Positions 28,716 to 50,919 of a stretch of DNA of 64,000 nucleotides are shown here, one piece after another (within the stretch, counting starts at the first letter, position 1; each line of letters opens with the position of its first letter). The notes under the pieces were generated by a model. The model saw only the letters and a program-made list of their open reading frames with translations, did not search any database and was not told where the DNA came from. Origin of the DNA: Saprospiraceae bacterium (GTDB taxonomy: Bacteria; Bacteroidota; Bacteroidia; Chitinophagales; Saprospiraceae); contig JANQLV010000016.1 of NCBI GenBank assembly GCA_028280415.1, positions 1 to 64,000 on the forward strand, read 5' to 3'. The position numbers and the translations under genes are program-made.

Positions 28716-28750
28716 AGTCCCGGGTTTTGTGAAAGCCCGGGACTTTTTTT
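28716..28750 (+). terminator. Rho-independent terminator after groEL
   Basis: The 9-bp GC-rich stem AGTCCCGGG/CCCGGGACT (28716-28724 with 28736-28744) is followed by seven T. Confidence 0.85.
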
Positions 28751-29030: not shown

Positions 29031-30467
29031 CTATTTACTATCCTTAGCCTCTTTTTCTCTTTTGATTTTTTCGAGATGAAAATCAAGCACTTCTTTGAGT
29101 TGATCGCTACCAATACCTTTGGAAATAATCTTTTTATCTTTATCCAGGACAAAAATACGCGGATTGGATTTTACATTATATTTGGATTTCCCCTGTAGGA
29201 AGGGGTCGGTTACATTGATCCAGTTATCCATTTTTCTCTCTTCGATCGCATCCCAGCACATTTTTCTTTCATCTTTACGCCGATTACAAATGCCAAGAAT
29301 TTTCACTCCTTTATCTGCGTATTCATTATAAAATTCCACGGCTTTGGGAATCGATTTTTTACAGTGGCCACAATCGGGATCCCAGAAATAGATCACCGTA
29401 AAATCGGCTTCCACATCATGAATGTACATCCACTCATTATCCGGCTTTTGTAAACGAACATTAGGGGCTTTCTTACCGATCAGGATGGGCGCAAACTCAT
29501 CTGCATTTTTACAGATTTTCTTGCGCTGCTCTTCTTCGACCCAGTCCGTTTTTCCACTACAATAATAAGTATGGGCAAGATGTACATAAACCGCATCCAT
29601 GCCAACAATTTCTGCCGATTGCTTGGCATAGTGATTTAAAAAGTGCGTTACCCAATACTGATAGGTATTTTTATCAGGTTGCGCTTTGGTGATAATTTTA
29701 TCAATCTCAACAATAATAGAATCCGGCACTTTATAGACCAGATTTTCGAAGTAGGAATTCACTTTATTAAAAAGTACCGGGCTACGGATCAAACGGGCAT
29801 CTGCGAAATCCACATGATCGAAATAGTGGCTTTTATAATACGCATACCTCTTTTGTTTCACCTCATCTTCCGCACCCGTATATTCAGGAATATCCACGCC
29901 CCAGGAAGTTTTAATAATGGCCGAGGTTAAAGATTTCGGATGTTTTTTTACAATTCCCTTTTGAAAAGCTTTGACCTCTTCATCTATATCCAACAGTTGT
30001 TGTGTCAATTTTTCTTTTTCCGGACCTTCGGCGGCCTCATCTCTGCTTTTTCTAATCTCCGCTACTATCTTTCCTTTGGATCGCAGGAATTTGGAATACT
30101 CCAGGAAAATGGCATTCTCCTCAGAATCGCTGAATTGTAATTTATTCGTTAGATCGTCTGCTGAACTTTGAACGGAAAAATGCTGGTCTGCCGGATCAAT
30201 CAACATCTCGAAATAGTTATTGGAGGGTACCAGTAATACCATATAGACGCCAGCTTCCAGCTTTTCTTCTCCCTCGTAGACAAATTCTCCGGCTGCATTA
30301 GCCTGAATAGTGTCTTTGACCAGTTGCTTTCCATTGTAGTGATAGCCCAAAACGATCTCCTTTTGATCGTAATTATCTATTTTAATCTTAATGTTATAAC
30401 CATTTTCTGCCAAAAGAGCGAAAAATGAAAGGCAGAGAAAAGAGATTAACAAGCTTAATTTCTTCAT
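29031..30467 (-). CDS. Thioredoxin-like (TlpA/ResA-type) periplasmic protein with DUF4369-like N-terminus
   Basis: A 478-residue exported protein with a signal peptide (MKKLSLLISFLCLSFFALLA). The N-terminal 115 or so residues form a beta-rich domain like the DUF4369 module common before Bacteroidota thioredoxins (IDNYDQKEIVLGYHYNG, LEAGVYMVLLVPSNNYFEMLI). A helical middle region (about 120-320, DUF5106-like) follows. The C-terminal thioredoxin fold carries the active site DPDCGHCKKS, preceded by FTVIYFW. Such proteins reduce or isomerise thiols in the periplasm, for example in cytochrome c maturation; the specific partner is unknown. It converges with groEL. Confidence 0.82.
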   Translation of the reverse strand: MKKLSLLISFLCLSFFALLAENGYNIKIKIDNYDQKEIVLGYHYNGKQLVKDTIQANAAGEFVYEGEEKLEAGVYMVLLVPSNNYFEMLIDPADQHFSVQSSADDLTNKLQFSDSEENAIFLEYSKFLRSKGKIVAEIRKSRDEAAEGPEKEKLTQQLLDIDEEVKAFQKGIVKKHPKSLTSAIIKTSWGVDIPEYTGAEDEVKQKRYAYYKSHYFDHVDFADARLIRSPVLFNKVNSYFENLVYKVPDSIIVEIDKIITKAQPDKNTYQYWVTHFLNHYAKQSAEIVGMDAVYVHLAHTYYCSGKTDWVEEEQRKKICKNADEFAPILIGKKAPNVRLQKPDNEWMYIHDVEADFTVIYFWDPDCGHCKKSIPKAVEFYNEYADKGVKILGICNRRKDERKMCWDAIEERKMDNWINVTDPFLQGKSKYNVKSNPRIFVLDKDKKIISKGIGSDQLKEVLDFHLEKIKREKEAKDSK

Positions 30468-30682: not shown

Positions 30683-33600
30683 TTATTCTTTTTTCCCTTC
30701 TCCTTCTTTTACTTTTTCTTCCTTTGCTTTTTCTTCCAATTCTTTGATGCGTTTTTCAGCAGCTTCTATTTGCTTATTAAGTTCCTCCAATTGCTTTTGT
30801 TTTTCGGCCAGGCGAGCTTCTTCCGCTTTAATTTTATTTTTCTCCTCAGAGATACGCTCGGCAGTCTCCTGTTTTACCGCATTAATTTGCTCCTTCGCTT
30901 CTTGCCTGGATTGAAAAACAGCATCGGAAGCCTCTTTTTGAGCGGTACTGATCTCTTCCAGAGAAGTTTTGCGGGCTTCCTCCGCATCGGCCAGGTATTT
31001 AGCTTTTTTCTCTTTGGCATCCTTGCGAGCTGTAGCTATTTCTTCCCGGGCAGATTTGCGAGCATCCTCTATTTCCTTTCTGCTTTTCGTTTCTTCTTCA
31101 GCAACTTCTTTTTCCAGCTCACTAATACGATTATCTCTATCCTGTTTTGCCAGGGCCATTGCTTCGGCAGCCTGTTGTTTTGTAGCGGCAACTTCCTGAG
31201 CCGCTGCTTCCTGAGTCATGGCAATTTCTTCAGCCGCCTCTTCTCTGATTTTTAAAACTTCCAGAGCCGAATCTTCTTTGGCTTTGGCAGCAACTTCTTT
31301 GGCTTCCTTGATTTCTGTAGCGACCTGCTCCTGAATAGCGGCAATTTCCGTAGCAGCCTGATCACGGGCAGTAGCTACATTGTTAGCAATAGACTGTTTT
31401 TCCAATGCCGCGTCCTCTTTAATTTGTCTAACAGATTCAGCCTCTTCGCTTTGTACCCTGGAAATCTGCTCGGCAGCATTGCGTTTAGCTTCGGAAATCG
31501 CATTGCTGGATTCCTGAGCCGCTAGTGCTGCAGCTTCTTTGGAGCGGGCTATCTCCCGGGCACTCTCTTCCCGGATCCGGGTAAGTTCCTGAGTAGCTTT
31601 TTCCCGGGCTGCAATTACCTCTTCTGCACTCATTCTCTGAGTTTCCGATTCCTTATTTTTGGCTTCTTCTATTTTTTTGGCTACCTCGGCTTGAATATCC
31701 TTGATTCTGGCTTGTGCTTTCGACTGTGCATCAGCCACATTTTCAGCGTATTCCCCTTTTGCTTTTTCAGCATTGGAGTTTGCTTCCTGTACGCGTTTGG
31801 CAGCTTCTTCCTGAGCCTGCTTAATCTCATTGGCCGATCGCTCTTTTGCTTTAACTACTTCCTGAGCAGATTCATTTTTCACACTTGTTTCCGTTTGTTT
31901 AGCCTTCTCAATGGCCGCTGCCAAATCCGCTTGTACTTTGGCTATTTCCTCGGCTGCTCTTTGTCTGGCAGTTTTGACATCATTAGCAATGCGTTCTTTC
32001 TCCTGAGCAGCTTTGGCTCTGGAATCTGCCACTTTTTTAGCTTCTTCCTGAGTAATTTCCTGAATGGTCTGAGCCGCTCTTTTTCTGGCATCAGAAACCT
32101 CACCGGCCAGTGCAGCTTTTTCTTCTTCTGCTTTTTGTTTAGCGGCTGCAATCTCTTCTGCGGATTGATTTTGGGTGGACAGAATTTCTTTGCTTGCCCT
32201 TTCTTTTTCAGAAGTTACTTGCTGTTGTGTTTTGGAAATTTCTTCGGCCGCTCTTTGTTTTGTTTCGGCTACCAGTTTAGCCTGAACCTCTTTCTCTTTC
32301 GCGGCGTTCTCTCTTAATTCAGCTACCTCATTGGCATTACTTTCCTGGATCAGGGCTTTCTCCTCTGCTCCTTTTCGGCGAGTTTCTGCTATTTCAAAAG
32401 CAATCTTTTCTTTTTCTATAACAGCATTCTCTCTAACCTGCGCAATTTCTTCCGCTGTTTCTTCTTTTATTTTTAAAATTTGCTCCGAAGCACTGCGTTT
32501 GCTATTGATTACATCCTCGGTTGTTTTATTCTTCTCTGTCTTCGCTTTTTCTCTTGCTTCGGCAATCAGGCTAGCAGTTTCCTCGCGAATTTTGCTCAAC
32601 TCACTCTGAGAGTTCTCCCGGGCTGAAGATACTTCATCAGCGTATTCCAGTTTGGCTAATTCGAGGCTTTCTTTCACTTTTTTAATCTCTTTAGCAGCAT
32701 TTTCCCGGGCATCTGCTACTTCTTTCGCAGATTCTACTTTTGCTCTTTGTACTTCTTCATTTGCTCTTTTTCGAGATTCAATTACATTGGTATTTAATTT
32801 TTCAATTTCCTTATCTGCATTAGCTCGTGCATCAGAGACAGCCATGGCAATAGCTTGCTTCTCTTTATCGATTTCGCCCTGAGAATTTTGCCGTGCTTCC
32901 AATACTTCTTTTGCATATTGTGCTTTCTTTTCGGCAGCCTGTTCCTGCGCTGCCGCTACCTCTTCCCTTAATTTTGCCTTTATTTGATCTGCCTTCTGCC
33001 TTTCAGCTTCGATTTCTTCCCGCAAACTCGCTTTCGTATCTGCCAATTCCTTCTTTAGTCTGGCTAATTCTTCATCATTTAACAAACTGATATCTGCCAC
33101 TTTCCGTACACCGGAAGGAGTAGCACTAATCGGACGATCCTTATTAGTTCCGGTTTTACTTGGAGTGAAATCATTTCCTTTCAGTATCGTATCGTTGACT
33201 TTATTTTTATCCAAAGAGCTGCTAAAGCAAGTAATCAATCTTTTAAACTCGGATTGACGGCTACCATTAACAGTAAACTTTCGCATCTCATTGCTAATAT
33301 TATTTTTAATATAGATTGTTGTAATAATCGAACTGGTAAACCAATTAATCGCAGCGAGATCAAGTTGCAGAATATTTTGATAGACAGGTGTTCCACCACC
33401 TCTATTCACTTCCCCCATGCCGATAAAGCGATAACTTTTTCGGGTACTGGTGTTATCCATAAAAATAATCTCATCGTCCTGATTGAATTCTACCCCGTTT
33501 TTGGAATACACTTTAGCGATGACCCCTTTTTTATCATTCATAAACTCAATCGAGTAGCTGTAATTTCCCCTGACAACCAAAGTTTGTGCTTTTGTCCGAA

Positions 33601-33724
33601 GCTGTTGAAAATCACCGACTACCTTATTCTCAGCAATCAGATTACTACAATTTTGTGCATTGGAAGATTGAACACACAGGAATAGCAGGGAAATAATGAG
33701 AAAGGATAAGCAATTGTGCTTCAT
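30683..33724 (-). CDS. Exported giant coiled-coil rod protein with 40-residue super-repeat
   Basis: A 1013-residue protein. A Sec signal peptide (1-24, ending NAQ) precedes a beta-rich N-terminal domain (about 25-175) and a polar linker (176-216). From about 217 to 1005 it is one long Ala/Glu/Lys/Arg helix with no Pro. Residues 324-861 are in an exact repeat register: four 40-residue units, two 29-residue units, then eight more 40-residue units. Each 40-mer reads 11+11+18 and starts with a word like E(V/I)xxAR. The 11-residue phase marks a hendecad coiled coil rather than the usual heptad. There is no T9SS domain, lipobox or membrane anchor. I do not recognise a family; an extended structural rod or tether in the periplasm or outside the cell is inference. 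Confidence 0.75.
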   Translation of the reverse strand: MKHNCLSFLIISLLFLCVQSSNAQNCSNLIAENKVVGDFQQLRTKAQTLVVRGNYSYSIEFMNDKKGVIAKVYSKNGVEFNQDDEIIFMDNTSTRKSYRFIGMGEVNRGGGTPVYQNILQLDLAAINWFTSSIITTIYIKNNISNEMRKFTVNGSRQSEFKRLITCFSSSLDKNKVNDTILKGNDFTPSKTGTNKDRPISATPSGVRKVADISLLNDEELARLKKELADTKASLREEIEAERQKADQIKAKLREEVAAAQEQAAEKKAQYAKEVLEARQNSQGEIDKEKQAIAMAVSDARANADKEIEKLNTNVIESRKRANEEVQRAKVESAKEVADARENAAKEIKKVKESLELAKLEYADEVSSARENSQSELSKIREETASLIAEAREKAKTEKNKTTEDVINSKRSASEQILKIKEETAEEIAQVRENAVIEKEKIAFEIAETRRKGAEEKALIQESNANEVAELRENAAKEKEVQAKLVAETKQRAAEEISKTQQQVTSEKERASKEILSTQNQSAEEIAAAKQKAEEEKAALAGEVSDARKRAAQTIQEITQEEAKKVADSRAKAAQEKERIANDVKTARQRAAEEIAKVQADLAAAIEKAKQTETSVKNESAQEVVKAKERSANEIKQAQEEAAKRVQEANSNAEKAKGEYAENVADAQSKAQARIKDIQAEVAKKIEEAKNKESETQRMSAEEVIAAREKATQELTRIREESAREIARSKEAAALAAQESSNAISEAKRNAAEQISRVQSEEAESVRQIKEDAALEKQSIANNVATARDQAATEIAAIQEQVATEIKEAKEVAAKAKEDSALEVLKIREEAAEEIAMTQEAAAQEVAATKQQAAEAMALAKQDRDNRISELEKEVAEEETKSRKEIEDARKSAREEIATARKDAKEKKAKYLADAEEARKTSLEEISTAQKEASDAVFQSRQEAKEQINAVKQETAERISEEKNKIKAEEARLAEKQKQLEELNKQIEAAEKRIKELEEKAKEEKVKEGEGKKE
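31142..32755 (-). repeat. 120-bp-period coding repeat (coiled-coil super-repeat)
   Basis: This segment encodes residues 324-861 of the rod protein: units of 120, 87 or again 120 bp in the order 4x120, 2x87, 8x120. The DNA copies are well diverged; the period is kept at the amino-acid level, implying old duplication and selection on helix phase. Confidence 0.7.
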
Positions 33725-33986: not shown

Positions 33987-34916
33987 TTAACGCTTAGCTG
34001 CCAACAAAAACAGTATTGCCATCCGAATTGCCACGCCATTTTCTACTTGCTGCAGTATGATTGACTGATCTGAATCCGCTACATCACTGGTTATTTCGAC
34101 GCCTCTATTGATAGGTCCTGGATGCATAATTACTACTTCACTATTCAAACTGTCCAGTAATGCTTTATTTATCCCAAAGTACTGCGCATATTCCCGCAAG
34201 GAAGGAAAATACTTAATATCCTGACGTTCTAGCTGGATTCGCAGCACATTTGCCACATCACACCATTCGAGACTTTCACGGACATCATAACTCACTTCGA
34301 CACCCAATTCATTAATATATTTGGGAATCAGAGTAGGTGGACCGCAAACTCGTACTTTTGCACCCAGTTTTTGTAAGCAAAAAATATTACTTAGTGCCAC
34401 TCGGGAGTGTAAAATATCCCCGAAAATAGCGATGTGTTTACCTTTGAGATTTCCCACTGCTTCGCGCATGGAAAAAGCATCGAGTAATGCCTGGGTAGGA
34501 TGCTCATGTGTTCCATCCCCCGCATTAATAATATTTGCGTCTATATGATTCGCCAGAAAGGCCGGCGCCCCGGGAGCCGGATGCCGCATGACGACCATAT
34601 CTACTTTCATGGAGAGAATATTATTCACGGTGTCCAATAAGGTTTCTCCTTTTTTTACGGAAGAAGAAGAAGCCGAAAAATTAACTACGTCAGCAGAAAG
34701 TCTCTTCTCAGCAAGCTCGAAAGAAATGCGGGTTCGGGTAGAATTTTCAAAAAATAAATTAGCGACGGTTACATCCCTAAGAGAAGGAACTTTTTTGATC
34801 GGGCGATTAATTACTTCTTTAAAGTTTTCCGCCGTTTCAAAAATAAGATTAATGTCATTGACCGTTAAGTACTTAATTCCTAGGACATGTTTTGTACTGA
34901 GCTGTGATTTGGTCAT
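33987..34916 (-). CDS. pyrB: Aspartate carbamoyltransferase catalytic subunit
   Basis: A 309-residue enzyme that condenses carbamoyl phosphate with aspartate, the committed step of pyrimidine synthesis. The carbamoyl-phosphate loop FFENSTRTRISFELAEKRL (about 55-73), the HPTQALLD motif and the MHPGPINRGVEI aspartate-site loop are intact. There is no pyrI regulatory-chain gene next to it. It follows pyrR by 39 nt on the same strand, so the two form an operon, presumably under PyrR control. A short 7-bp hairpin (33961-33978) lies after the stop codon, without a T-run. Confidence 0.96.
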   Translation of the reverse strand: MTKSQLSTKHVLGIKYLTVNDINLIFETAENFKEVINRPIKKVPSLRDVTVANLFFENSTRTRISFELAEKRLSADVVNFSASSSSVKKGETLLDTVNNILSMKVDMVVMRHPAPGAPAFLANHIDANIINAGDGTHEHPTQALLDAFSMREAVGNLKGKHIAIFGDILHSRVALSNIFCLQKLGAKVRVCGPPTLIPKYINELGVEVSYDVRESLEWCDVANVLRIQLERQDIKYFPSLREYAQYFGINKALLDSLNSEVVIMHPGPINRGVEITSDVADSDQSIILQQVENGVAIRMAILFLLAAKR

Positions 34917-44721: not shown

Positions 44722-47700
44722 TTATTCTCCCACCTGTACCCGGATACCTTCCGAGTGGCTGGTAAATTCCGGAGCATACATGCTTTGAATAGTGGTTATT
44801 CCATTAGAGAAATCGCCATTATGAATTACTCTTAGCGGATATTCGAAAACGTATGTCCCTTTTGGCAAATAGCTAAAAAAGAAATTCGTAGCTATATCTC
44901 CGGTACTCTCGTAGTAACCTAGCCCACCTTGCCATTTGTAGGTACTCAGTACATTAATCGGCTCAAAACCACTGGCCCGCATATCCTTCATATGTACATA
45001 CTCCATAGCACGATCTACTCTAATTTCAATACGAACCTGTAATTTGTCCCCCGGCTGCAATTGAGCGCCTTCTTTTAGTAAACTCATCTTAGGTCCGGTA
45101 TCCGTATTGGTGACCTTGAATAGTTTTTTATTAATCTTTAAAGGTGTATCCTCAAAAGTTTCAATTTTATCCAGTTGCTCAAAATACTGCCAGTAAAGCG
45201 CTCCCCAGGCCACTACTTTGTTGGGGTTTTCTACTTTCACTTTGCTCATTTCACTTTTTACTTCAGCCCCATCCCAGCGTTTTTTGAAATAGCCCGTTCC
45301 CGCTTCCGTCTTCAATTTACTTTGATCAATTAGCTCATTACCCAAAGTAATTTTTACAGGTTGATCCTCTAAAAGCCAGTTATCTCCATTCATCAGCAAA
45401 GCATATACTGCAGAAGCTGTAGCTTTGGTTGTTTTCCAGTGATTGGTCTGCTTGTTTTTTAATAACCAAACTCTTAAATCATCTACCGCTTGTGCATCCT
45501 GAGCAACTTCATCAAAAACTTCAATCATCAGTGCATGCGTTTCAATCGGCATTTGATACCAGTAAAAACCTGAATTGTATTTCCAGTACATTCCAAACTC
45601 TTCATTATTAATTGATCGCTCTTTTAAAGACTTTACGATATCGGTAGGAACCGCGTCTCCTTTTTTAAAGCGCTTTAGGGCCAATGCGATCATTCCTTCA
45701 GAATAATTACCTTTTCGCAACCAGTATTTTTCGGCCTGACCGAGATAATAATCAAGGGCTTCTCCTGAAGCCTGATCAATCGGTTTATCCATGAAAAATG
45801 AGCGCGTATACAAATAATGAATAGCGATGTAATCCAAATGATCTTTTTCCAAATTCCCCTTATTGCGCCTTAGTCTTTCCTTCAACTCTTCATAATGGCT
45901 TTTGATTTCAAAATCGATATAGGTCAATGCCCGGTCAATAACCTTTGCTGTTTCAGGATCATCTTTCAGAGCCTGTACTCCCAGGCGGTCAAGATGCCCC
46001 ATCCCTTCGACAATATACTGCGTAATGTACCAATTGTCTCGCCCGCCGGGAAACCAGGCAAAACCTCCATTAGCAAGTTGTCGATCAGAAATTATTTTGA
46101 TCGCCGCTTCGAATTCATTATTCATTCGGTTGAGATCGAAAAGCAAAGCAATATTTCGGCGCTGTTGTTCTTCACTTTGTGCCTGTAATACCCATGGCGT
46201 TTCTTCCAAGAGGGCAGATTTAAGTTCCTGATTTTTAGTTAATTTGCTATCCATCGCATCCGTTCCCTTCCACTGTTCAAACACACGTTTAATCTTTGGA
46301 TGCGAATTAGCTACTGAGCTGGCCAGGGCATTAGCATAGTAGCGGCTAAAAATTTGCTCCGTACATTCGTAGGGATATTCCATCAGATAGGGCAATGCCT
46401 GTACCGCATACCAGGCTGGATTAGAAGTAAATTCCAGGGTCATGGCATGTTGGGTCAAAGTATTGGATCGACTTGCTTTTTCCATTGCCTTAAAGTCAAA
46501 GTTTTTGGTTTGACCTCCCCTTACCGGCAAAGGCATCGTTTCTGTAACCATCATTCGATTAGTAATGACAGGCAAGGCACTTTCCTCACCATCGGAGAAA
46601 TTAGCAGCTTTAGCTACTATCCGATGCGTCACTGCCCCCAACTGTCCAATCGGAATCTTCAGCTTCCAGGCTAAGCGATCAGATTGTCCGGCTCTTGCCG
46701 TAAAAGGAATTTCCATTTTGTTATTGCCGAGCTTTTGATCGATTGCTTGCATGGAAACAGCATCAAAAAGCTGTAAAGTAGCAATACCACTGATCTCTTT
46801 ATCGGTAAGGTTACTCACTTTTGCAGTAAATTCAATCTCATCTCCTTCGCGGAAAAAACGCGGAGGATTTGGAAGCACCATAAGGTCTTTTTGCGTCACT
46901 ACCTCTTTAGTTGTAAATCCGAGTTTCAAATCCTTAGTATGTGCAAAACCCATAAACTTCCAGCGGGTAAGTGCCTCGTTCATTTTAAACTGAAGAATCA
47001 CATTACCTTCTTCATCCGTTTTGACATTTGGAAAGAAGAAAACCGTTTCGTTGAGATTCGTACGGATTTGGGGTGGATTATCCTGCTCTTCCGCACTTGT
47101 TTTCCCTTCCTCATCATCCTCCGAACTTAAACCAGCCGTTTCTGCAGCTAAAGCTGAAACATCCTTAGTAGGCAGATTCCTAATTTGCTCACTGGTTATA
47201 GTACCACCAGTGGTAGTGTTATCCTGTGCTATAGTAGGTGCAGGTGCTTCGCGTTTTTTCCCTCTTGCACCATCCATTTCTACTATTTCTGCTTCTTCCA
47301 ATGCATAATCTTTGTAGACGTAACCGAAGTATTGGAAGTTGTTGAAGCCAAACCAGTTAAGACTTTCGAAAACCCGATAAGGAAGCCCCGGAGCGCTTAC
47401 TCGCCCCCAGTTATAATGCGCTTCGTTTCCATTACGCGTACCATAGCCATGATGACGCCAGCCCAAACGCTTGTACATGTATGGATGCGGGTTTAAGGAC
47501 CAATTATTTGGCGCAAAGGCGTCCAGAGAAGCATCGTACATCCCGGCTACCATTTCCGCCATCACTTTTTCTTTCTTTGGCCCACTGATTTTCAACTCCC
47601 AGGTTTCATCCTGACCAGGGTATAATTTATCCCGGAAGGTACTGTATTCAATGCTTAATTCCTTATTCGTCCAGGGTACATTAATCGTATAAGCATTATT

Positions 47701-50700
47701 GTAAAAGCGACTGTCTTTTGTGAAATAAATATTGTAAAACAGATTTCCACGGTGAACTTCTTCAATTGCTTGAGATTCTTTTCTTAATTCATTGATAGTC
47801 AACCAATCACTTTTAATCAATTTATTATCATGTTCTACTTCAAAAAGCATTTTCACATTGGGATCAAAAGAACCGAAATAAATATCGGCCACTTCTCCAG
47901 GTTCGAAGGTATTTTGCTCGACAACGTGGAAATAGATTTCATTAGTTGGCACTCTTTTACTATCCAAATCGTAAACGGTGACAAATCTTTTGATTTCTAT
48001 TTTTTCGCCAAAAGCATCCTGCGTACTAAGGTGAAAAGCGTATTTTCCAGGTACTAATTTTATATTATCGAAAGAAAGTTCCTTTGATTGCTCCGTATCA
48101 AAATCAGCGTTAAAAACCGTCTGCTCTACAGTCCAGTTAGCAACCTGATCTTCATCTTTATAGGCAAATCGAGGAAAATCACGTACAAAATCGGCTTTAT
48201 TTATAATGGGTTTATCCGGTACCGGCCAATAACGCGCGACATAAGACTGAGCGGGTGTTTTCAGTTTTTCTATTTTAAAATTCCCTTTCGCTGCTTCAAA
48301 CTCACCATTCAGATTCTTGGTACTAATATTAGTAGATTGAAGGCTGTCGGAATTGACTTGTGAGCCCACATCAAAGTTAACCGATAAAGCAACTGTACCA
48401 ACGATAACTTTCCTTTGAGCAGAATGTGTTTCTCCCGTGATATCGATAACATCGGCATATACTGTGTAATAATACTGAGGTTTCGTAGAAGGATCGATGC
48501 TTAGATCGGGAATCGCTTCAAACTCAATCTCGAATTCTCCTTTCTCATCCGTTTTCAATTCCCCATTAGTAATTTCCATAGCCGGAACACTTGGTCGCCA
48601 ACCGCCATAGCGCCACCAGGGATAATAGGGAAATCTGGCTTCGCGTACTACGCGATAAACTACTTTCGCCCCATCAATATTACTACCGGCATAAGCTTTA
48701 GCCTTACCTTTTACAATTACCTCTTCTCCTAATTTAAAGCTCCCCTTCACAGGATCAAAAGTCGCTTCGAACTTAGGTCGTTTATATTCTTCTACTCTTA
48801 CATACTTAGTTGAACTTTGGCCGGACCATTGAATACTGATTCGCATATTCCCGGCAAGTCCACTGGTTGGAGCGGTAAAAGCTCCGTTAATGGTTCCGTA
48901 CTCATTGGTTCGTAATTCCAGTTTTTCAATTTCCTGATTATTAACATCCCTAAACTCAACCGTTACTTTTTCATTAGTGATGATCGTTGGTCTGCGCTTG
49001 GTATCGTAGGCAATGGCCAGACCTTTGAAATAAATTGTCTGCCCCGGTCGGTAAATCGCTCTATCCAGATACAGGCTCATTGTCTTACGAGCCTGGGAAT
49101 CGTAGTTTCGCACCACATCCGAAGACCATACATTCAAATCCAGCACATCATCCCCTTTTGAAAGTACTGTTTTGAATCTAGGCTCTCCTTTACCGGGTTT
49201 AACTACAAATCCATTCTTATCCGTAAGTGCTTCGCCTATTTTAGTTTCTTCATTGCGGCGCAAGATTGAATTATAGTTCTGTCTATAAAAGGTCGCTTTT
49301 ACACCAGCCATAGGTTCGCTGGTTTTGCGATTGGTCACTACAAATTCTGCCTTTTTATTATCATTAATACGATTGGCAAATGCGATATTGGTCACATTGA
49401 AAAAAGCATATTGCAGGGCATTGGATTTATCTTTCAAATTGCTATCATTGGAAAGCACCATCATATAATGTCCAACTGCGAGGGGGGCCACTTTGATTTC
49501 AGTACTGTGTCCCCGATAATCATCTGTCACCTGAAGATCAAAAGCAAAACCTTTTATCGGATCGAGCTTTCTTATGTAATCAGCTCTTTCATCCCATCTG
49601 AGCTGCTGGAATTTTTTAATTTGCTTATCGGTCATCTTAATGATGCGCCCGTGTACTTTTTCAATATTCCGATAATTTACATTCATTAAAATCGCCTCGT
49701 TTGGAATATTAAAACTCTCTATTATAAAACTGAGACTCTTGCTTAGAATACTAGCTTTCAATCCACCGCATTGAGCTGCACCGTAGGACTCTGGAAAAGC
49801 TTCGATGGCCCTGTCACATATTTCCAGTGCCTTTTTCCAATACAATCTCTTTTCATCACTATCTCCCAGCTTGTAGGAGTTGCCGGATTGATAGTAGTAT
49901 TCGGCTATTTTATAATCTACCTCGGTAGAAAAAACTTTGCCTTCATATTGCTTTTTAAGCTTTTCGAGTGTTTCCAGGTATATTTTATCTTTTTCGGGAA
50001 GTATCGTATTTTGATAAACGAAAGCAATTCTACGCATATTAGCATAGTTCAAAGCTAAATCCTGCTCATCATTTTTATGAAAATCCAGCAATTTTTGCAG
50101 AAGCTGCAGTACCAGCAATTTCCCGGAAGTGGAATCCCTTGAAGTGAAAGAATAATTGATAAAAGTCTCCAGATCGGCAAGTGCTTCCGGCTGGTTGATA
50201 TAAAATTGATAAGCTGGTTTTGTTAAATAATTACGATCATTGGAAAAATGATTAATCGCCCGGTAGGTTAGAAAATCGTAAAGCGTCGGTTGAAAGGATT
50301 CTTCGCCTACTTTTCCAGAAAGAATAGCTTGAAAATCTTTGAGTGCGAGTCGCTTCGTATTTTCATCATTAATTGAAGAAAGGTATAATTCACGAGAGCG
50401 ATCCGTCAATTGCTCAATGGTCCAGGTTTCGAAATCATAAGGTTCGAAATCGACCATTCCGGTACGGTTTTGAAATTTCCAGTAATTCTGATCCAAATAA
50501 CGGGTATAAAGCTCCGCCATCATAGATTCCAGTATCTTATTATGTGGAAAAGCCGCTTTGTCAATATGAGATTCCATTTCGCGCAATGTATTTGCAAAAC
50601 CATCTTCCTCAAGCGTAGTTTGATACTTTCCCTTATACATCAGGCATTTGACAATTTGGGGAGCATTATTTTCGGCTACTACTTTTTCGTAGAGCTTATC

Positions 50701-50919
50701 GACTTTTTCCAGGGCAGATTTAGGTAAACCTTTACGATCCAGGGAATCAATGGTTTTCCACTCTTTCGTATAATCCTGATTATTGAGTTTGAGCATATCT
50801 TTTGTAGTAATTGTGGCTTGGGAGTCTTGATTAAGAGTTAGTGTTTTTTTCTTTTTATTACAAGCAAAAAGAAATAACATAAGTAAAAACGAAGGAGCGA
50901 TCAAAAATAATTTTTTCAT
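44722..50919 (-). CDS. Alpha-2-macroglobulin family lipoprotein
   Basis: A 2065-residue protease-trapping protein of the bacterial alpha-2-macroglobulin family. A lipoprotein signal (lipobox LFAC, Cys20) anchors it in the envelope. A long N-terminal helical region (about 30-420) precedes the macroglobulin (MG) domains; the MG2 core YRPGQTIYFKGLA is near residue 615. The A2M core NLNETVFFFPNVKTDEEGNV (about 1290) and the thioester motif CTEQ (Cys1519) are present, so covalent capture of proteases is possible. The presumed bait region (about 1230-1270) carries a segment resembling the TonB-receptor plug linker. Related E. coli proteins have about 1650 residues, so the N-terminal extension is long. 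No penicillin-binding protein gene (pbpC) is adjacent. Confidence 0.88.
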   Translation of the reverse strand: MKKLFLIAPSFLLMLFLFACNKKKKTLTLNQDSQATITTKDMLKLNNQDYTKEWKTIDSLDRKGLPKSALEKVDKLYEKVVAENNAPQIVKCLMYKGKYQTTLEEDGFANTLREMESHIDKAAFPHNKILESMMAELYTRYLDQNYWKFQNRTGMVDFEPYDFETWTIEQLTDRSRELYLSSINDENTKRLALKDFQAILSGKVGEESFQPTLYDFLTYRAINHFSNDRNYLTKPAYQFYINQPEALADLETFINYSFTSRDSTSGKLLVLQLLQKLLDFHKNDEQDLALNYANMRRIAFVYQNTILPEKDKIYLETLEKLKKQYEGKVFSTEVDYKIAEYYYQSGNSYKLGDSDEKRLYWKKALEICDRAIEAFPESYGAAQCGGLKASILSKSLSFIIESFNIPNEAILMNVNYRNIEKVHGRIIKMTDKQIKKFQQLRWDERADYIRKLDPIKGFAFDLQVTDDYRGHSTEIKVAPLAVGHYMMVLSNDSNLKDKSNALQYAFFNVTNIAFANRINDNKKAEFVVTNRKTSEPMAGVKATFYRQNYNSILRRNEETKIGEALTDKNGFVVKPGKGEPRFKTVLSKGDDVLDLNVWSSDVVRNYDSQARKTMSLYLDRAIYRPGQTIYFKGLAIAYDTKRRPTIITNEKVTVEFRDVNNQEIEKLELRTNEYGTINGAFTAPTSGLAGNMRISIQWSGQSSTKYVRVEEYKRPKFEATFDPVKGSFKLGEEVIVKGKAKAYAGSNIDGAKVVYRVVREARFPYYPWWRYGGWRPSVPAMEITNGELKTDEKGEFEIEFEAIPDLSIDPSTKPQYYYTVYADVIDITGETHSAQRKVIVGTVALSVNFDVGSQVNSDSLQSTNISTKNLNGEFEAAKGNFKIEKLKTPAQSYVARYWPVPDKPIINKADFVRDFPRFAYKDEDQVANWTVEQTVFNADFDTEQSKELSFDNIKLVPGKYAFHLSTQDAFGEKIEIKRFVTVYDLDSKRVPTNEIYFHVVEQNTFEPGEVADIYFGSFDPNVKMLFEVEHDNKLIKSDWLTINELRKESQAIEEVHRGNLFYNIYFTKDSRFYNNAYTINVPWTNKELSIEYSTFRDKLYPGQDETWELKISGPKKEKVMAEMVAGMYDASLDAFAPNNWSLNPHPYMYKRLGWRHHGYGTRNGNEAHYNWGRVSAPGLPYRVFESLNWFGFNNFQYFGYVYKDYALEEAEIVEMDGARGKKREAPAPTIAQDNTTTGGTITSEQIRNLPTKDVSALAAETAGLSSEDDEEGKTSAEEQDNPPQIRTNLNETVFFFPNVKTDEEGNVILQFKMNEALTRWKFMGFAHTKDLKLGFTTKEVVTQKDLMVLPNPPRFFREGDEIEFTAKVSNLTDKEISGIATLQLFDAVSMQAIDQKLGNNKMEIPFTARAGQSDRLAWKLKIPIGQLGAVTHRIVAKAANFSDGEESALPVITNRMMVTETMPLPVRGGQTKNFDFKAMEKASRSNTLTQHAMTLEFTSNPAWYAVQALPYLMEYPYECTEQIFSRYYANALASSVANSHPKIKRVFEQWKGTDAMDSKLTKNQELKSALLEETPWVLQAQSEEQQRRNIALLFDLNRMNNEFEAAIKIISDRQLANGGFAWFPGGRDNWYITQYIVEGMGHLDRLGVQALKDDPETAKVIDRALTYIDFEIKSHYEELKERLRRNKGNLEKDHLDYIAIHYLYTRSFFMDKPIDQASGEALDYYLGQAEKYWLRKGNYSEGMIALALKRFKKGDAVPTDIVKSLKERSINNEEFGMYWKYNSGFYWYQMPIETHALMIEVFDEVAQDAQAVDDLRVWLLKNKQTNHWKTTKATASAVYALLMNGDNWLLEDQPVKITLGNELIDQSKLKTEAGTGYFKKRWDGAEVKSEMSKVKVENPNKVVAWGALYWQYFEQLDKIETFEDTPLKINKKLFKVTNTDTGPKMSLLKEGAQLQPGDKLQVRIEIRVDRAMEYVHMKDMRASGFEPINVLSTYKWQGGLGYYESTGDIATNFFFSYLPKGTYVFEYPLRVIHNGDFSNGITTIQSMYAPEFTSHSEGIRVQVGE

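Follow-up and report, generated by a model that had tools for sequence, protein, structure and literature searches.

A Saprospiraceae protein with a 40-residue coiled-coil repeat as a possible exported, intermediate-filament-like envelope rod

What purpose does a long protein serve in the Saprospiraceae when most of its chain is predicted to be one helix built on an exact 40-residue repeat? The gene (the rod gene, encoding the rod protein) lies on the minus strand at positions 30683-33724 of a 64,000-nucleotide stretch of contig JANQLV010000016.1 of a Saprospiraceae bacterium (assembly GCA_028280415.1), which stretch is called the window throughout; it is present in a single copy in this genome, and the plus-strand reading of the same positions contains 13 stops. 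An earlier note on this DNA had described the repeat and proposed a tether or spacer outside the cytoplasm. Here we suggest, from sequence and prediction, that the rod protein may be an exported, intermediate-filament-like structural rod of the envelope, with a probability of about 0.42. The parts of the gene on which the argument draws are these:

30683-33724, minus strand: rod gene, open reading frame of 1013 amino acids (aa)
33653..33724, minus strand: signal-peptide-like segment, residues 1-24, read by eye; hydrophobic N-termini also in relatives
33197..33652, minus strand: predicted beta-rich head, residues 25-176, with C26 and C166 (AlphaFold2, AF2)
33077..33196, minus strand: linker, residues 177-216, with a predicted local distance difference test score (pLDDT) below 50 at 186-216
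30707..33076, minus strand: helical rod, residues 217-1006, from the AF2 helix and the coherent period (3.635-3.64 over 212-960)
31142..32755, minus strand: exact 40-residue super-repeat, residues 324-861 (4x40, 2x29, 8x40)
32372..32491, minus strand: most conserved rod stretch, residues 412-451, from entropy in 36 sequences
32165..32221, minus strand: main length-change zone, residues ~502-520, within the 29-residue units (484-541)
30971..31111, minus strand: second length-change zone, residues ~872-918, with changes of 11, 18, 22 or 29
30710..30844, minus strand: C-terminal classical heptads, residues 961-1005, from the core-layer path, followed by a variable charged tail

The partition given in the earlier note proved exact: residues 324-861 divided without remainder into four units of 40 residues, two of 29 and eight of 40, each 40-mer being 11+11+18 and each 29-residue unit a 40-mer minus one 11-mer. 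The lag-40 autocorrelation (BLOSUM62) that it had named as a check was 1.08, versus -0.09 +/- 0.07 in 200 shuffles; lags 80, 120, 11, 29 and 18 were likewise high, and the maximum in a second 200 shuffles was 0.134 at lags 11, 18, 29 and 40. Hydrophobicity over residues 212-960 peaked at 3.635 residues per turn (power 623.6; shuffle maximum 115.8), with a power of 0.2 at 3.5. An ordinary heptad coiled coil was thus ruled out, since there was no power at 3.5 over this range and heptads occurred only in the last 45 residues. A path of core layers in steps of 3 or 4 ran through 219 layers from residue 209 to 1000, i.e., beyond the exact repeat: mostly three hendecads per heptad to ~960 and then six plain heptads, the heptads lying closer together at the beginning and the path being slightly irregular at two points; the best family-mean period for residues 960-1005 was 3.475. 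The hydrophobic stripe was coherent across ~750 residues, the rod contained no Pro, Cys or Trp, and in the 40-mer position profile Ala filled many core sites, with Ile or Val at "a". Tandem DNA repeats as the origin of the pattern were also ruled out: the DNA held no array of 120-bp units, so the 40-residue repeat is old.

An undistorted helix has 3.63 residues per turn and hendecads supercoil very little, according to the accessible text of PMC9858780. Because 40/11 = 3.636 lies near this value, the rod is expected to be straight; its period is essentially that of an unwound alpha-helix. Of the nearly straight, slightly right-handed bundle that had been proposed, the straightness therefore stood, while the right-handedness could not be distinguished from straight. 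The helical part (~790 residues) came to ~117 nm, in agreement with the earlier estimate of about 118 nm. The otherwise tyrosine-poor rod carries tyrosines at 270, 361, 659 and 910, irregularly spaced and set in a motif, roughly YA.EV..AR, that recurs loosely; of the 36 sequences compared, at least 80% kept Tyr 361, 659 and 910.

The comparison with relatives used two nested sets. The 42-protein set comprised the window's protein plus 23 and 18 full-length proteins, the most distant of which shares 21% overall identity with it: four of 27 loci (L042, L047, L051 and L058) were dropped as they ended inside the gene, 30 loci (L002-L031) were left out as the gene was incomplete there, and of 20 regions L065 and L066 were excluded for having no rod and L079-L081 were cut. 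Among 80 further members 73 had a stop inside the stretch and seven were cut; 70 of the 73 were of 913-1077 aa, two (L131 and L141) of 683 and 684 aa, and one (L151, 209 aa) was excluded because its frame continued into foreign sequence where the contig ends. Eighteen of the 72 usable frames were identical to sequences already in the set, so the 54 new ones gave the 96-protein set (42 + 54), in which the lowest rod identity to the window's protein was 19%. Four positive genomes (G060, G128, G180 and G192) were in neither set owing to contig ends or a broken frame.

The repeat recurred in the relatives, as the earlier note had required of its own reading: lag 40 was strongest in 95 of the 96 proteins (lag 11 in L167), and the best hydrophobic period was 3.628-3.640 residues per turn in all 96 (40/11 = 3.636). 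In the 42-protein set lag 40 ranked first in 42/42 and lag 51 second in 20/42, and rod length was 106-118 nm. The gaps in its rod alignment measured 11 (20 cases), 18 (10), 22 (8), 29 (7), 4 (2) and 7, 8 and 14 (one each); thus 45 of 50 were 11, 18, 22 or 29, mostly at 502-520 and 872-918, step sizes toward which a repetitive rod biases the aligner. In the 502-520 zone, the deletions among the 41 relatives measured 18, 22 or 29 residues and the single insertion 11. The P values for 22 length events collapsed by hand from this set (a combined 11+4 counted as 15, a combined 4+7 as 11) are indicative only, as related species have events in common. Long stretches kept their length: residues 219-500 (282 residues) and 604-780 (177 residues) were constant in 42/42 each, and in 94/96 and 91/96 respectively of the larger set, where residues 604-870 were 267 long in 80/96 and 296 in 9/96. 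Across the 96 proteins, 74 of 105 gaps within 212-960 were 11, 18, 22 or 29, or 82 of 105 including 7, 40 and 58; gaps other than the four main sizes were 7 (5), 2 (5), 3 (3), 15 (3), 26, 31, 39, 40 and 302 (2 each), and 4, 8, 56, 58 and 59 (1 each).

Anchor-to-anchor lengths (219-933) depend less on gap placement, though the anchors stem from the same alignment, and by this measure 88 of the 96 proteins differed from the window's in step (by 0, 11, 18, 22, 29, 33, 44, 98 or 320): 0 in 31, -18 in 12, -29 in 11, +29 in nine, -22 in eight, -11 in seven, -33 in three, +11 and -320 in two each, and +22, -44 and -98 (58+40) in one each. The -320 cases were L131 and L141 (G183 and G100, one genus), in which the rod was shorter by 8x40 with period and lag 40 kept; this shortening counts against a ruler of fixed length and favours a modular rod that is locked in phase. 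The rod evolves mostly by in-step length change rather than at a fixed length.

Several features suggested how chains would pair. The site preceding each "a" was net negative (39 negative versus 14 positive of 81), whereas that four past "a" was positive (54 versus 6 negative of 81); in a parallel in-register pair these charges face each other, and in an antiparallel pair like faces like, so parallel pairing is favoured. An Ala-rich core is tied to dimers among hendecad proteins, including FilP and Scy, in the part of PMC9858780 that treats them. The rod would therewith probably be a parallel in-register dimer. Conservation was assessed in 36 of the 42 proteins after removal of rows at least 80% identical: rod entropy was 1.55 in the core versus 2.33 outside, and residues 412-451 stood at 1.40 overall and 1.39 for non-core sites, versus 1.91 for the head. 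Non-core sites there are therefore conserved like core, which points to lateral binding of the rod, either to itself (filaments) or to a partner; a passive spacer needs none.

An exported envelope rod could then work as follows. The chain would begin with the head and continue as a nearly straight coiled-coil rod (~790 residues, ~117 nm) that gives way to a heptad zipper and, last, a short tail of charged residues. A pair of chains, the number being what we infer, would join parallel and in register via the Ala-rich core, and the C-terminal heptads may initiate the pairing. With 11 turns per 40 residues, the helices would not need to intertwine; the rod would be straight, and only those length changes would be allowed that leave the core stripe facing the partner. 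The rods would associate laterally and end to end via conserved surface patches (332-371 and 412-491) into filaments or into a lattice that follows the envelope, with the periplasm as the likeliest place, and would stiffen the cell or serve as a scaffold. Computation supports the periodicity, the register, the in-step length changes, the predicted helix and the limits of the family within the samples searched. Export route, dimer, parallel order, periplasmic location, filament and stiffening are all conditional in this proposal.

How does this compare with the tether that the earlier note had put forward? A tether or spacer, with the head on one envelope layer, the tail on another and the rod setting the distance, would suit the head-rod-tail layout, the export-type N-terminus and the long stretches of exactly kept length. 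It fared poorly, and we regard it as unlikely: i) Pfam and NCBIfam scans matched no second anchor, be it an SLH domain, an outer-membrane barrel or a type IX secretion system (T9SS) tail, and by eye no lipobox was seen; ii) the surface is conserved in mid-rod (412-451); iii) at 106-118 nm the rod is too long to span a periplasm; iv) the rod of one genus is 320 residues shorter, which a strict ruler forbids.

The N-terminal part bears on where the protein would act. The beta-rich head held up: AF2 modelled residues 25-205 (28 sequences) with 10 strands and two helices at a mean pLDDT of 84.4. The signal peptide stood as a signal-like N-terminus, read by eye in the window's protein and in relatives; cleavage would presumably follow ...SSNAQ. 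C26 and C166 were invariant in the 28 sequences; in the 36 more diverse ones C166 was invariant and C26 was present in at least 90%, a pair that would be in keeping with a disulfide-bonded, exported domain. The linker showed small indels at 180-211 among relatives. No fold was assigned to the head, as the best Foldseek match of its model against the PDB was too weak (Ig-like, i.e., immunoglobulin-like; E 4.7e-3, TM-score 0.26; 0 matches at E <= 0.001). Sequence searches with the head against Pfam, NCBIfam and PDB sequences gave no match of weight: sub-cut-off matches fell to 16 families, one head each (best E 0.0073), and the head profile met one LubX chain in the PDB at E 0.73.

No known domain family of weight was found for the whole protein, with only DUF899, DUF3868, ComGD and one CCDC90-like match below cut-off. 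At E 0.01, the Pfam search of 24 members returned only the CCDC90-like match in one member and no DivIVA-type N-terminus, and the NCBIfam search of the same number returned only the ComGD match, far below cut-off, and no T9SS C-terminal sorting domain. A full-length profile had no match in the PDB at E 0.001; no solved relative emerged, two Selenoprotein S chains reaching only E 0.13-0.16 with residues 941-1006. In titles and abstract openings of the literature on hendecad and right-handed coiled coils, periplasmic filaments and Saprospiraceae coiled coils, the rod protein was undescribed.

A fibre on the cell surface or outside the cell, such as an adhesive stalk or a matrix strand that crosses the outer membrane by an unnamed route, would agree with the signal-like N-terminus and the weakly Ig-like head. 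We think it rather improbable, as the matches of the 24 members include no T9SS C-terminal signal and the rod changes length mostly in step, whereas surface stalks often vary freely.

The rod could also fold back as an antiparallel bundle, or stay a free single helix, in either case forming no 117-nm rod. Alanine-rich helices can pack antiparallel, and the whole-chain AF2 model, which is of a single chain (helix 217-1006), breaks at ~400, 545 and 698. Against folding back, the hydrophobic stripe holds its phase across these breaks, 94 of the 96 proteins keep 219-500, the stretch that contains the first break, at the same length, and the e/g charges favour parallel pairs; a free helix, for its part, would need no stripe. 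Single-chain models of coiled coils at times bend spuriously, as an excerpt of PMC11676326 states. We hold folding back or a free helix to be improbable.

Weighing against the exported envelope rod are the following points. The predicted template modelling score (pTM) of the whole-chain model was 0.27 and its helix breaks, at ~399-409, 540-553 and 696-700, coincided with low pLDDT, also found at 828-856, so a folded-back bundle is possible from the model. In the window's rod, charge pairs at i to i+4 exceeded those at i to i+5 (z 5.4 versus 2.4), and the charge pattern may lie partly within a single helix. Eight of the 96 proteins differed off step between the anchors (+26 in three, -8 in two, and -4, +48 and -94 in one each), and gaps of 15, 26, 31, 39 and 59 were present in the rod alignment. 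Protein length is not absolute, with 683 and 684 aa in one genus and two proteins of 913 aa in another. The rod protein is not essential, since 95 of 198 family genomes had no match, 80 of these being negative again in a profile search. Finally, a literature search found no published experiment on any member of the family.

The distribution of the head (residues 1-184) confined the protein to one family within the samples: 103 of 198 Saprospiraceae genomes matched, the window's own counted, as did four of 296 genomes across the phylum, all Saprospiraceae. Profile searches gave eight of 149 genomes in the order and four of 296 in the phylum, again all Saprospiraceae, so that no other family in the order and phylum samples had a match; the same profile, positive in the phylum search, yielded 0/80 among the 95 genomes negative at first. 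Carriers are marine and sludge bacteria, and relatives include Saprospiraceae, Phaeodactylibacter and Lewinella, e.g., Lewinella cohaerens DSM 23179. A rod with a different head was sought with residues 212-500 in 58 head-negative genomes, with only 39 candidates scored in many of them; all three positive controls matched, and of the 58 only G107 did. There, a 613-aa frame (contig C139:13063-14610) matched the rod in a genome counted head-negative, and this frame is probably a cut copy of the rod gene. In two G076 proteins (L065 and L066), which have signal-like N-termini and no rod, the head was combined in one chain with TPR repeats and a caspase-like CHAT domain, L065 having four head matches within its first 751 residues; the head could be a docking module of general use.

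The available text of PMC9870892 describes multirail structures beneath the outer membrane of Saprospira grandis with bundle fibres of 7.5 +/- 0.8 nm. That the rod protein is part of the gliding machinery, as a subunit of these fibres, is very unlikely: that text does not name the fibres' main protein and an exported, laterally conserved rod would suit them, yet it reports similar, GldJ-associated rails in Flavobacterium, the head was unseen outside the Saprospiraceae in our samples, and co-occurrence gave no signal, as GldJ-family matches (E <= 0.001) came from 198/198 genomes with or without the rod. With GldJ matching everywhere, co-occurrence was uninformative as a test (matches exceeded the curated cut-off in only two genomes and were only weaker than 1e-40 in 12; 2 of 14 control genomes matched), and the link of rod and gliding is only a candidate. 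It would be a long shot to propose a special Saprospiraceae cytoskeleton outside the cytoplasm, intermediate-filament-like, whose straight rods would lie bundled beneath the outer membrane and might correspond to the bundle fibres carrying the Saprospira gliding adhesins.

Two neighbours flank the rod gene in the window:

33987..34916, minus strand: upstream neighbour, aspartate carbamoyltransferase, which from its sequence we take to be pyrB
29031..30467, minus strand: downstream neighbour, TlpA-like thioredoxin protein with DUF4369 and DUF5106 (Pfam)

Of 27 loci compared, 18 had a pyrB match upstream of the rod gene, and 13 of 17 queried genomes yielded a position for pyrB. For the TlpA-like protein, 12 of the 27 loci had a downstream match, and several of the 27 stop too soon for one to be seen; two loci (L032:11203-14348 and L050:11127-14129) had two adjoining matches to it 3' of the rod gene. 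Such a neighbour would fit a disulfide in the head and proves nothing. Sigma-70-like sites numbered 12 in the window versus 9.8 +/- 2.9 in shuffles, one of them (10/12 matches) directly upstream of the rod gene; Bacteroidota-type promoter patterns numbered four versus 3.07 expected, with none at the rod gene. Terminator-like sites numbered 11 versus 5.9 +/- 2.2 in shuffles, the best stem (13 pairs, then T6; 28716-28744, plus strand) standing directly after groEL. Elsewhere in the window, an alpha-2-macroglobulin-like protein of 2065 aa (44722-50919, minus strand) has MG2, A2M and bMG10 domains.

Among known systems, Scy of Streptomyces is the nearest precedent for the rod. In the accessible parts of the sources, the Scy C-terminal domain has a 51-residue, 14-turn repeat with rope formation proposed (PMC3718342), and FilP self-assembles into striated filaments (PMC6599971). 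As far as these partial accounts go, FilP and Scy share with the rod protein a very long hendecad-rich rod, an Ala-rich core and a near-straight period (51/14 = 3.643 versus 40/11 = 3.636). However, the unit here is 40 residues, 11 shorter than Scy's 51, the rod protein has a signal-like N-terminus and a beta head, no DivIVA-type N-terminus was matched, and it occurs in Bacteroidota whereas FilP and Scy are from Actinomycetota. With another unit, a signal-like N-terminus and no DivIVA-type N-terminus matched, the rod protein is not a FilP/Scy member.

Intermediate filaments, crescentin and lamin are intracellular and built mostly on heptads. The rod protein resembles them in its head-rod-tail plan, as judged from prediction and alignment, and in long rod stretches of conserved length (partly after the accessible text of PMC6599971). 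No sequence relation to intermediate filaments was found, and the signal-like N-terminus and conserved Cys pair argue against the cytoplasm. SlpA, OmpM and Omp-alpha, in the partial accounts at hand, are likewise extracytoplasmic in diderm envelopes, some with long coiled coils. They combine an SLH end with a membrane barrel or hydrophobic end, whereas Pfam matched neither SLH nor barrel in the rod protein. The b stalk of F-type ATP synthase and the H tube of phage phiX174 have hendecad-containing helices like the rod; unlike the rod they are shorter and membrane-anchored or viral.

In the Saprospiraceae rod, a naturally occurring coiled coil follows the period of the undistorted helix for ~750 residues, which makes it a possible straight nanorod. 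As its length is altered almost only in phase-keeping steps, it offers a clean test case of how helix phase constrains protein evolution. The rod gene is also a candidate for the Saprospira envelope fibres. If its product does form filaments outside the cytoplasm, it would extend intermediate-filament-like systems to a compartment from which, to our knowledge, hardly any are known.

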